Made by a program: the position numbers and the translations under genes. Of a stretch of 45,348 nucleotides of DNA, positions 29,405 through 35,748 are shown in pieces. Origin of the DNA: Gammaproteobacteria bacterium (lineage in GTDB: Bacteria > Pseudomonadota > Gammaproteobacteria > SZUA-152); the NCBI GenBank assembly GCA_021647705.1, contig JAKIUF010000036.1:1-45348 (forward strand), given 5' to 3'. The notes under the pieces were generated by a model. The model was not told the origin of the DNA and searched no databases. It worked only from the letters and a program-made list of their open reading frames with translations. Position 1 is the stretch's first letter, and each line of letters opens with the position of its first letter.

Positions 29405-29662
29405 TTAAGGGCGAAATTGCCCTGTTTTCAGCGTATGCAGCAGATCTTGGGTAATGAAAACCCAACGCAAAGGCGCAGAGATGCGGAGAGCGCAAAAGAT
29501 GAGAGGATGACGAGCAAAGAATACCTCTTTGCGTTCTCTGCATCTCTGCGCCTTTGCGCCTTTGCGTTAGATTTTATGACACCGTGATTCGTGGCCGAGG
29601 AACGACCTGTTCCGCTGAATGTAAACCGTGATTTTATTCATTTGGATATTTTTAGCGCTTAG
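29405..29662 (+). repeat. palindromic dispersed repeat, copy D
   Basis: It lies in the 479-base gap between the DUF455 gene and the metzincin-like gene. It starts TTAAGGGCGAAATTGCCC, has the inner arms AACGCAAAGGCGCAGAG and a mirror ending GCGCCTTTGCGTT, and ends with TTTTTAGCGCTTAGTTC. The outer ends are near-complements, like terminal inverted repeats. An open frame through it (29087-29587) reads QRRRDAESAK and LRLCAFA and is not a gene. Confidence 0.85.
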
Positions 29663-29746: not shown

Positions 29747-31987
29747 TTAACCCTGTGCCAGTACCTGCACGGTGTACTCTGCATGAGTGCTGCCTCCCAC
29801 GCCATCGGGAGCGCTAAATGAGATAACGTGTTCACCGGGAGTCAGGTTGTTGGCAATAAGATATTCCCCCCCTCCCAAATCACCATCAAGACTGGAGTTC
29901 CAGCGACAGTCATCTTCGTCAGCACAACCATCAGGCGAATAGGCGCAACCTGCCAGCTCCACGACTTCGCTCTGTTGCGTCTGTCCGTCCTGTGGCACGG
30001 GTGAGATCATCGCTTGCGCAGGCGTCCGGCTCACTGCAAACATTTCAGTTTCTGCCATGGTGGTACGCAACAGGGTGGAGGCCATCACTTGCAATTTGCA
30101 GTTTTTTCCGCTGGGCAGTTGATCAAGGTTCACTTTATACTCAGTCTCGCCCAGCGCCATAACCAGCGGACGCCAAGTTTCACCACCATCGTTTGTATAA
30201 CGAACAATAGAAGTCACTTGCTCGTCTTTGCCGCATTGTGTTGTCCATTTAAGGGGCACAGTACCTGATTGTGCTTCGCTGATATCAAATTTGAGTGCCT
30301 CAATATTGACTGTCGGTGCTTTTTTAGGGATGTCGATGATAGTCGGCCCATTTGCATGTCCGCATTTAAAGACTAATCTGGCAACCTCACTCAGCATGGG
30401 AATAGCTTCCGAATACCAAGTGTGGGAGTCATCATGACTCTGATGTGCCTCTTTCAGCACCAAACGTTTTGCCCACAACACACGACCCTGTCCATCCTGC
30501 AATTCAATAGAATGTTTGGTGGGCCCACCGTTACTGTTGCCACCCGGCCCCTCCATGGAAAACCCGCTTTGCAAATCTACATCACCGTTGCTGCTCACGC
30601 CAAAATCAAGATACAGATGCTCTTGCGAGTGACACAGGTTTTTTGCACACCTACTGGCTTCAACCGTTACCGGTGAGGGCTGATGATTAATGTCGCTAAT
30701 AAGCGCACGATACGTGCAGGGTGAGACCCAGGGGTTGCCGCAATAGCCCATAAAATCGTTACTGTTCGACGGGGTGTAAACTTTTCCGGTGGCGTAATCC
30801 ATTCCAAATTCGCCGATAGCTGCAGATTGAGGATGGGTATAATGTGGGTAACTCGGGTCCGGCCCACCGACATCACAACCGGGAGCATGACTGCGACCCA
30901 AAGCATGTCCCAGTTCTTGTGCCATTATGCTGCCATCACCGACAAAACTGGCTCCGACATTACCACCTCCACAACCACCATAGGTGGTAGGAATACCTTT
31001 TTTCATCAACGCATAATGATTCGCATCCTGACCCGAGGCATTGTACAGCGCACGCAACTGACGCCATAAGGCGCTCCACCCCTGGCCACAGCCACCACCA
31101 GCGGTGTTGGTCAGATCGCCCGCAAAGTGAATCACATCATAAGAAAGAAAATTGAAACGTGACATGGGCCATGTCTTGCGCAGATACACGCTGGTGGCAA
31201 TAAAGTCGCTCAGGGGAGGAGCTGTCTTTAAAATACCATTGCGATGATAATGCACGCCATGGGCACGAATGCGCACCACCGGTACACGGACAAAGGTCAG
31301 GAGACGACCCAGCCAGGGCGTATATTTCCATTGCCCGGCAACTAATACTTTACAGCGGCTATAAACCACTAATTTGCCGCGTGCATAAAAATCGGGGATA
31401 CGGAAATTTAATGTGTGGTTAGCATTGCCACGATCAATCGTCGCGGCACGTCGCCCGGCGGTGGAACCATTTAAGACAACAGCTTTTCTGTAGGGTTGGC
31501 CTGCAATATCGGTGCGTTTAAACCATACTTCACCCTGTACGGCACCAGCAGCCTGCCTCCATGGTTTGACGAGATTGGGGTAAACACGAATCACAAGATG
31601 TTTACGCTCGATTAACGGCACGGCATTATCTGTTTCATCATGGGAAGCAGGCCGACTATGTGAAGACGTGTAAAACTGGGTTGCCTGGGTTGCCTCCATT
31701 CCTTCGATATTAAAAATAAAAGTTGGCGTTAAAATAGTCGGCGGAATAATGTGAGAAAGAGCTTCGCTATCGACTGCATTATTTTCAATCGTTTCTGCTT
31801 TTGTGAGCGTACTGGGTGGCATATCCAGTGTGGCGGCCGCCTCTGTATCGAGAGGTTCCACTGCACCAGGAGGGACAATACCCAGAGCCACTCCCTCAAG
31901 ATTAAAAAATTCGGTCGTTCGCAGAAACTGCTTTTCAATCCCGACCTCAGGTTTGCAAGCAGGCTGACGCTCGATCTGCTTTTCCAT
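29747..31987 (-). CDS. large metzincin-like (zinc metalloprotease-fold) protein with altered HExxH
   Basis: With the ATG at 31987 (AGGGAGAA ribosome site; the frame opens at 32143) it is 746 residues. The central part has MAQELGHALGRSHAPGC near residue 363 and a Met-turn-like NDFMGYCGNPW about 50 residues later, the metzincin pattern HExxHxxGxxH. The first His is replaced by Gln (codon CAA). Other features are several Cys-Gly stretches (AGGGCGQGW, YGGCGGGN) and two C-terminal beta-sandwich domains; the last (WNSSLDGDLGGGEYLIANNL) resembles Ig-like or PKD-like adhesion modules. No signal peptide is visible, and the N-terminal 100 residues are low in structure. The substrate is unknown, and it may be inactive. 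Confidence 0.75.
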   Translation of the reverse strand: MEKQIERQPACKPEVGIEKQFLRTTEFFNLEGVALGIVPPGAVEPLDTEAAATLDMPPSTLTKAETIENNAVDSEALSHIIPPTILTPTFIFNIEGMEATQATQFYTSSHSRPASHDETDNAVPLIERKHLVIRVYPNLVKPWRQAAGAVQGEVWFKRTDIAGQPYRKAVVLNGSTAGRRAATIDRGNANHTLNFRIPDFYARGKLVVYSRCKVLVAGQWKYTPWLGRLLTFVRVPVVRIRAHGVHYHRNGILKTAPPLSDFIATSVYLRKTWPMSRFNFLSYDVIHFAGDLTNTAGGGCGQGWSALWRQLRALYNASGQDANHYALMKKGIPTTYGGCGGGNVGASFVGDGSIMAQELGHALGRSHAPGCDVGGPDPSYPHYTHPQSAAIGEFGMDYATGKVYTPSNSNDFMGYCGNPWVSPCTYRALISDINHQPSPVTVEASRCAKNLCHSQEHLYLDFGVSSNGDVDLQSGFSMEGPGGNSNGGPTKHSIELQDGQGRVLWAKRLVLKEAHQSHDDSHTWYSEAIPMLSEVARLVFKCGHANGPTIIDIPKKAPTVNIEALKFDISEAQSGTVPLKWTTQCGKDEQVTSIVRYTNDGGETWRPLVMALGETEYKVNLDQLPSGKNCKLQVMASTLLRTTMAETEMFAVSRTPAQAMISPVPQDGQTQQSEVVELAGCAYSPDGCADEDDCRWNSSLDGDLGGGEYLIANNLTPGEHVISFSAPDGVGGSTHAEYTVQVLAQG

Positions 31988-33825: not shown

Positions 33826-35748
33826 ATGAACAGTTCACGTTTATTCCAAGGTGCAGCAATAGCGGCATCACTAGCACTTGCTGCCTACATCACTGTCGTG
33901 TACGTACTGGAGGGAGAGGAAGATAACAAAACTGTCACCGCATCCTCCGGTAACGCAGCAAGCCACAATGTCACGCGCGATATTTTAAGCTACGTCCCTG
34001 CTGATACAATCTATTTTTTCGGTGGACTTGAACCCGCTTCACTGAGAGATATGATAACAATCATCGAGCCTCAATGGGGGTTTATGCAGCCCGAAGACTT
34101 TAAAAAAACACTCGACCAACAATTGCCCAATAACAAAAATATGCCGCCGGCAATGGGGATGTTAACCGGATTATTCATTGAGTATGTGACTGCGTTTAAA
34201 GATCTGGAAACAGTACAAAACACGTTGGGGCTCACCGATGAACTGGACGCCGTACTTTATTCCGTCGGCACCATACCGGTAATGCGTATCAAACTGGCTG
34301 ACACAAATGCGTTTAATGCCTTTATTAACAGTGCCGAAGCAATGACACAGGTAACATCGGTGCAGGGATCACACGGTGAACTTTCCTTTAAAACATACCG
34401 TTTCTCTACATCTGAAAACGGTCATCAGAACGCTATTGACGCCAAACTCGTCATTAGCGTAAACAACGACTACGCCTTAATCACCTTGTTAACATCATTA
34501 GAAGACCAAGCAACCCGTGACGTAATACTGGGTGTAAAAAAACCGGCAAACTCCCTGGCTGATACGACACTGTTAACAGATCTCACATCCAGACATAATT
34601 TCCACCCCGCTTATCTTGGCTACATCAATCATGAAGAAATCGTGAAGGGTTTGACTACCCCGGATGGCAACAAATTTGGCCACATGCTGGAGGCATTGCT
34701 CAACACCGTCAGCGCACAAGAAATGCCGGAGCCAATACCTGAGCAAGCTGATGGAGATGTCGAACAAACATCCTCCGCACACAATAAACCCGTGACAGAA
34801 AACCCACTGGCCCCCGTACAAACAACCGCGTGTCGTACCGAGCTTCTGACAATCACTCAAACATGGCCACGCACCGTCTTTGGTTACACGCAACTCGACC
34901 TGAAGAAAAAACCCATAAAAATGGCCGCACGCATGGTGGTTGAAAATACCGATGCCGCATTTATGCAGCAATTACAACAACTACGCGGCTTCATTCCAGC
35001 ACATGTCCACAAAATCGACAGCAGACCTGCCCTGGGTTTTGGCTTTGGCTTTAACATCGACGAACTGACGCCAGTAGTCAGCCAGATGTTCACAGAATTC
35101 ACACAAAAGGATTATCAATGCCAGCTTCTGGCAGAAATGAAGCAAAGCCTTGTTGATTCCAACCCGGTGCTCGCACTGGGCATGATGGCGGGCATGGCAG
35201 CGGGCGTGCAAGGCATTTCGGCCACCGTACTGGATATCGATGCCTCCATGAACCTGGAGCAAAAAGGTGCGATGCCCGATGTTCACAGTCTTGATGCGAT
35301 TATCACTCTCTCCGCAAAAGAGCCGCAGCGTCTGCTCCTGATGGTGGCCAATTTCCAGCAAGGCATGCCACCCATTCAGCTCCCCGATGATGGCACACCC
35401 ATCGACTTTCCCATTCCCCTGCCAACATCTGATCTCGGCAGCATTAAACTGGCATTAAAGGGAAACCATATTGTGGCTTACATCGGGGACAAAGCGGAAA
35501 AAATCGCGCAAAAAATGGCAAACGATCCTCTCGCGGCGACGGGCATGTTTGCACTTAATATGGACTTTGGGAAATACATGAAACTTGTCAATAGTCTTGT
35601 GCAAACCCTTGATACTACAGACGGGAAAATATCCGAGCAGGACAAGGTCATGCTGGAAGGGATGGCAGAAATGGATATGCAGTTCGTCGAATCTTTTGAC
35701 ATTACTCCGCAAGGCATCGTCATCGATATAACAATGACAATGCACTGA
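33826..35748 (+). CDS. membrane-anchored protein of unknown function
   Basis: This 640-residue protein has a single N-terminal hydrophobic segment (residues about 8-28, LFQGAAIAASLALAAYITVVYVL) with the bulk outside the cytoplasm. I do not recognise the family. The visible segments YVPADTIYFFGGLEPAS and FKDLETVQNTLGLTDELDAVLYSVGTIPVMRIKL, and a later NMDFGKYMKLVNSL, suggest a repeated alpha/beta layout like that of DUF3352-type proteins, but this is only a resemblance. A Pro-rich insert (PEPIPEQADGDVEQ) at about residues 302-330 may be a linker between two halves. It has its own promoter and is convergent with tex. Confidence 0.75.
   Translation: MNSSRLFQGAAIAASLALAAYITVVYVLEGEEDNKTVTASSGNAASHNVTRDILSYVPADTIYFFGGLEPASLRDMITIIEPQWGFMQPEDFKKTLDQQLPNNKNMPPAMGMLTGLFIEYVTAFKDLETVQNTLGLTDELDAVLYSVGTIPVMRIKLADTNAFNAFINSAEAMTQVTSVQGSHGELSFKTYRFSTSENGHQNAIDAKLVISVNNDYALITLLTSLEDQATRDVILGVKKPANSLADTTLLTDLTSRHNFHPAYLGYINHEEIVKGLTTPDGNKFGHMLEALLNTVSAQEMPEPIPEQADGDVEQTSSAHNKPVTENPLAPVQTTACRTELLTITQTWPRTVFGYTQLDLKKKPIKMAARMVVENTDAAFMQQLQQLRGFIPAHVHKIDSRPALGFGFGFNIDELTPVVSQMFTEFTQKDYQCQLLAEMKQSLVDSNPVLALGMMAGMAAGVQGISATVLDIDASMNLEQKGAMPDVHSLDAIITLSAKEPQRLLLMVANFQQGMPPIQLPDDGTPIDFPIPLPTSDLGSIKLALKGNHIVAYIGDKAEKIAQKMANDPLAATGMFALNMDFGKYMKLVNSLVQTLDTTDGKISEQDKVMLEGMAEMDMQFVESFDITPQGIVIDITMTMH

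Follow-up and report, generated by a model that had tools for sequence, protein, structure and literature searches.

A metzincin-like protein encoded in the window, the whole 45,348-nucleotide stretch of DNA analysed here, carries Gln in the place of the first zinc-binding His, and this substitution is inherited. Throughout the clade Gln is fixed, purifying selection acts on the protein as a whole, and the loop that bears the third ligand changes fast. Judged from the sequence, no ordinary three-His zinc site is left. We give an even chance to the reading that the protein is a pseudopeptidase with a binding role. The gene and its parts lie in the window as follows.

29747..31987, reverse strand: metzincin-like protein of 746 residues with Gln in the first metal-ligand place (from the ORF reading, orthologues and purifying selection)
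31718..31987, reverse strand: N-terminal tail, residues 1-90, fast-evolving and without a visible signal peptide
31268..31717, reverse strand: conserved N-terminal domain, residues 91-240, starting with the family's I.G.E.TQ..Q motif and holding invariant alignment columns
30668..31267, reverse strand: metzincin-like catalytic domain, residues 241-440 (boundaries set by us), with a weak Pfam M66 match and profile matches in the PDB
30905..30919, reverse strand: QELGH, residues 357-361, the altered metal-ligand and general-base motif
30869..30904, reverse strand: third-ligand loop, residues 362-373, with His367, the fastest-changing stretch within the catalytic domain
30743..30757, reverse strand: Met-turn DFMGY, residues 411-415, with Met413 in 20 of 20 aligned rows
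29750..30667, reverse strand: C-terminal region, residues 441-746, possibly Ig/PKD-like, with sub-threshold Pfam matches in relatives alone

In MAQELGHALGRSHAPGC, codon 357 reads CAA for Gln, and the motif is QELGHALGRSH. A first-pass annotation made from the letters alone had reported this motif with the second and third His, the Gly and the NDFMGY turn intact, and the ORF reading bears it out; the Met-turn reads SNDFMGYC. The ATG start is preceded by AGGGAG 7 nt upstream. The mechanical ORF, of 798 aa, begins at a TTG further upstream, and in the orthologue of genome G011 the frame is open for just one codon ahead of the ATG. The protein has one match in its own genome at E≤0.001. Two Cys of the Cys-Gly segments, C300 and C339, occur in 6/6 genus rows and are absent from the archaeal Gln member described below. 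Near the N-terminus, PACKPEVG resembles a Cys-switch, a reading we rejected because the Cys is missing in G006, G008 and G011.

The protein is best explained as a variant that probably derives from a family of M66-like metzincins. M66 (PF10462) has StcE as a known member. The window protein matches this profile at 13.6 bits (E 0.032, residues 323-384), below the gathering score of 20.6, and differs from M66 further in its Gln and in having no visible signal peptide; a related protein on a Thermus plasmid scores above the cut-off (33.9 bits) and is annotated M66. Its QELGHALGRSH departs from the metzincin consensus HExxHxxGxxH at the first His, and the Met-turn, DFMGY, stands downstream as in metzincins. 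Queried alone against the PDB, the protein had no metzincin among its matches at E≤1. A 12-row family profile that includes HExxH rows found ADAM33, serralysins and other metzincins there, aligned around the motif (best E 0.00077). AlphaFold2, run with 5 alignment rows each, gave pLDDT 29.5 for the full length and 32.0 for the catalytic domain, and these models were set aside. The C-terminal region had been credited with Ig-like modules. This was not confirmed, as the window protein has no Pfam match there at E≤0.1 and its relatives have sub-threshold ones (BiPBP_C in Paraburkholderia, PKD_3 in G068), though an Ig-like fold is plausible for the region.

Five of the 11 further genomes in the genus have a full-length orthologue, at 67-88% identity, and all five read QE[LI]GH. 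The Gln codon is CAA in five of the six genus members and CAG in the most distant one (G011). A plasmid protein of the archaeon Natrinema gelatinilyticum reads QEIGHNCIGSDH, again with Gln, at 28% identity (87% of the query covered, E 3e-61). It is the one archaeal row, drawn from an archaeal sample of plasmid records. Across the alignment, Glu358, His361, Met413 and Tyr415 are kept in 20/20 rows, QE.GH in 7/7 Gln rows and His367 in 6/7. The first ligand is His in all 13 other family rows, which come from Bradyrhizobium, Paraburkholderia, Thermus, G068, G113, G381, G455 (two proteins) and a single further genus (five).

The first-pass annotation had left three origins for the Gln open: a sequencing error, a recent isolated loss and a true subfamily feature. 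As it remarked, CAA is one base from a His codon, which would suit an error or a very recent mutation of a normal HExxH protease. We consider this explanation almost certainly wrong. The same Gln stands in five other assemblies of the genus (67-88% identity), the most distant of which encodes it as CAG, and again in Natrinema; none of the close relatives reads HELGH. The substitution is therefore inherited, and the homology search favours the subfamily feature, with Gln in 6/6 genus members despite the CAA/CAG difference.

The Gln may have arisen once or twice. The Gln rows cluster weakly in three trees (71/66, 73/58 and, with the motif columns removed, 71/75). The AU test mildly rejects joining either the genus or Natrinema to Paraburkholderia plus G068 (p-AU 0.022 and 0.040) and does not reject joining either to the HExxH Bradyrhizobium row (p-AU 0.33 and 0.15). 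Columns that the genus has in common with one other row alone are hardly in excess for Natrinema (7, against 6 for Paraburkholderia and 5 for G068). We thus dropped a single origin as a firm claim. Seven plasmid records matched in all, among them a partial Mycetohabitans match and three equal-scoring Bradyrhizobium records, of which one was taken. G017, G018, G002 and G004, matching in C-terminal stretches only, were dropped, and the alignments do not include G150 and G226, which had no core match. The tree program removed G498 from the first tree, and it came back in a second under another cut, and G381 is in the 20-row alignment and the motif-masked tree and absent from the other two trees. 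Four contig-scan loci were treated as G007, G003, G006 and G008 and counted once.

Two of the plasmid-borne relatives have features of their own. The Natrinema member (L015:5803-8028), whose record is without annotation, combines its Gln with a spacing from second to third His that is longer by one residue. The Bradyrhizobium protein (L016:4816-7776), annotated adenylate/guanylate cyclase, holds an N-terminally truncated HELGH member in its C-terminal part, and this cyclase-fused form may be a recombination product.

Purifying selection is evident over the protein as a whole. Whole-protein pairwise dN/dS is 0.10-0.21 in 13/15 pairs (dS was saturated in the others), so the gene is maintained and not decaying. 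The catalytic domain gave 0.07-0.17 (10/15 pairs) and the N-terminal 90 residues 0.24-0.83 (14/15 pairs); the computable G011 pairs are rough, their dS running from about 1.3 to 2.6 depending on the region.

The third-ligand loop evolves fast in the Gln clade and, as an indicative comparison, is conserved in a control HExxH genus. Among the five close orthologues, residues 362-373 vary at 11/12 positions versus 33/188 in the rest of the catalytic domain, with a gap counted as variation. Adding G011 gives 11/12 versus 59/188, and leaving out the row with a deletion gives 8/12 versus 30/188 (Fisher P 0.0002). Pooled pN/pS reaches 0.44 in the loop and 0.11 across the remainder of the domain, and no other 12-residue window of the domain has a higher pN. 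The loop is exceptional within the catalytic domain and not within the whole protein: pN/pS is 0.90 in the linker at 438-455 and 0.56 in the N-terminal tail, both of which change at least as fast. In the control genus, whose rows are 38-94% identical to each other, the loop varies at 1/12 positions versus 57/188 with three rows (P 0.19, not significant alone) and at 4/12 versus 130/188 with five rows (P 0.02), the five being more divergent than the clade. Loop against loop, the clade differs from the control genus at Fisher P 0.009 in both comparisons made, which rest on one clade and one control genus. All of these P values are indicative only, since the loop was chosen after the alignment had been viewed and the rows are related.

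Changes in the loop reach the ligand itself. In G003 (L003:1774-2787; one assembly, 73% complete) an in-frame 15-bp deletion removes His367 and leaves QELGHALRSRD. Gly364 is Arg in G007, Arg in G003 and Ser in G008. An intact third His, at the usual spacing and with the Gly, is seen in 3/7 Gln rows (the window copy, G006 and G011) versus 11/13 HExxH rows, the two exceptions being both G455 proteins, which are without the Gly.

We favour a pseudopeptidase because the sequence no longer has the three-His site, part of the clade has lost more of the site, and the protein is still selected. The protein would be a chromosomal accessory protein, probably not Sec-exported, derived from an M66-like metzincin family. 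Its first zinc His would have become Gln in an ancestor of the carriers, ordinary zinc peptidase activity would have been lost, and the fold would now serve for binding or as a scaffold, where the conserved cleft and the domains that flank it hold a partner instead of cutting it. The retention of Glu358, His361 and Met413 in 7/7 Gln rows counts against this, as a drifting dead site might lose its general base.

Conserved sites with a substituted HExxH are a known pattern in zincins, according to the available text of PMC3650047 and PMC11266112. In ADAM pseudopeptidases, as described in the available part of PMC11266112, the Met-turn is typically kept while zinc ligands are substituted, as in the window protein. 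Those proteins differ in being transmembrane, and unc-71, ADAM7, ADAM11 and others among them are also without the general base, which the window protein keeps. Another comparison is CD1597 of C. difficile, a signal-less bacterial protein of an HEXXH family that showed no activity on the peptides tested, in the portion of PMC11460543 available; it is a Pro-Pro endopeptidase homologue with HEXXH intact, and we liken the two by description only. The Gln alone does not separate a pseudopeptidase from a Gln-ligated enzyme. In the available text of PMC3650047, His is replaced most often by Gln in proteins generally, and the first His of a substituted HExxH is unusually often Glu or Arg.

The precedent for an enzyme with such a site comes from an alga: Volvox VMP3, a QEXXH metalloproteinase that belongs with the M11 proteins. 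Its original study is cited as Heitzer and Hallmann (2002). In the open-access papers searched, those on QEXXH metalloproteinases mostly concern Volvox, and QEXXHXXGXXH was found in PMC7717551 alone. The available text of that paper reports VMP3 as catalytic with this motif and says that it favours copper; the part of PMC5704591 available also cites it.

The window protein could likewise be catalytic, a peptidase with Gln-His-His around its metal and possibly a preference for copper like VMP3, and either cytoplasmic or exported without a Sec signal. We regard this as the main rival, less probable than a pseudopeptidase, and viable because Glu358, His361 and the Met-turn are kept in 7/7 Gln rows and VMP3 provides the precedent (PMC7717551, as far as its text was available). 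The window copy matches QExxHxxGxxH exactly, which counts against a pseudopeptidase, and so do G006 and G011, making 3/6 genus members. Tyr415 is kept along with the other three residues in all 20 rows, and both the genus and the archaeon have Gln rather than an arbitrary residue. However, G007, G008, G003 and Natrinema lack the exact motif: the third ligand is deleted in G003, the register is shifted in Natrinema, and the Gly is replaced in 3/6 genus members. The loop is also the part of the catalytic domain that changes fastest, and VMP3 belongs to the extracellular matrix of an alga, whereas the window protein has no M11 gametolysin match among its Pfam matches at E≤0.1. A broader proposal, a prokaryotic signal-less metzincin-like lineage in Gammaproteobacteria and haloarchaea with a permanent Gln that might act with a non-zinc metal such as copper, strikes us as unlikely. 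If true, that lineage would be a prokaryotic counterpart of Volvox VMP3.

The G003 deletion suggests one further possibility. Its QELGHALRSRD resembles the Asp-zincin pattern HEXXHXXGXXD (PMC3890501, in the text available), with Asp falling at the third-ligand position. The site might then have been re-tuned in this lineage, with Gln, His361 and either His or Asp in third place binding a structural or regulatory metal instead of serving catalysis, and QE.GH is indeed kept in every Gln row. We think this improbable. The pattern comes from one species and one assembly at 73% completeness, G003 is also without the Gly, and MAFFT places a gap, not the Asp, at the third-ligand position.

The first-pass annotation saw no export signal at the chosen start, and this held in a Kyte-Doolittle hydropathy screen with our own threshold rather than SignalP. 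In none of the six genus members did a hydrophobic segment follow the MEK ATG or any in-frame start upstream of it, so an upstream start with a signal peptide did not emerge. Segments above threshold follow only starts well inside the protein, in 5/6 members, and G008 has none. Natrinema and G068 have no signal-like N-terminus by the same screen, nor has G381 by inspection. Paraburkholderia is just over threshold at one start (MAMLIIRGVEVTQ), where the stretch is the family's conserved I.G.E.TQ motif and not a signal. The N-terminus is of a secretion or lipoprotein type in G113, G498 and the two G455 proteins, and the Bradyrhizobium member is fused to a cyclase domain. The missing signal is a trait separate from the Gln, because some HExxH relatives (Paraburkholderia, G068, G381) also show none. 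The tension first noted between extracellular-type modules and a missing signal is thereby weakened, and the modules themselves are unconfirmed. That earlier interpretation is supported in part, in the subfamily feature.

The gene is accessory, being present in 6/12 genomes of the genus and 0/12 other genomes of the order; several of the genomes surveyed are incomplete (73-86%). Family members elsewhere are rare. A full-length profile matched the own genome and 4 others of 369 class genomes, 3 of those 4 in the C-terminal part only; a core profile matched the own and 2 others of 398 phylum genomes, and 3/369 in an apparently near-identical class draw. Phages gave no match to the protein, and two viral contig scans gave none that was confirmed. 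The window surroundings are housekeeping genes (trigger factor, ClpX, Lon, CysS, Tex). The gene adjoins a lytic-transglycosylase-like gene in the own genome, G003, G007, G008 and G011; in G006 the contig ends on that side and the opposite neighbour, the DUF455 gene, is retained. The non-carriers G005, G009 and G010 keep the lytic-transglycosylase-like neighbour, with other reading frames in the adjoining ≤~1.5 kb. An injected effector was considered and set aside, as a T6SS sheath (PF05943; 3/6 carriers vs 1/6 non-carriers) and a phage-type sheath (PF04984; 3/6 vs 3/6) showed no association with the gene.

Two other elements of the neighbourhood deserve mention. Between the metzincin-like and DUF455 genes, at window positions 29457-29575, lies a strong inverted repeat with 31-nt arms, 94% complementary, and a single-strand DNA fold z-score of -9.5. 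A 640-aa protein at 33826-35748 has no Pfam match at E≤0.1, and an ORF like it occurs near the lytic-transglycosylase-like gene in G003, G005, G007, G008 and G011.

One family thus offers a natural series, from HExxH to QExxH to QExxH minus the third His. The series would allow a direct test of Gln as a ligand for a catalytic metal in a metzincin, and of how bacterial pseudopeptidases evolve.
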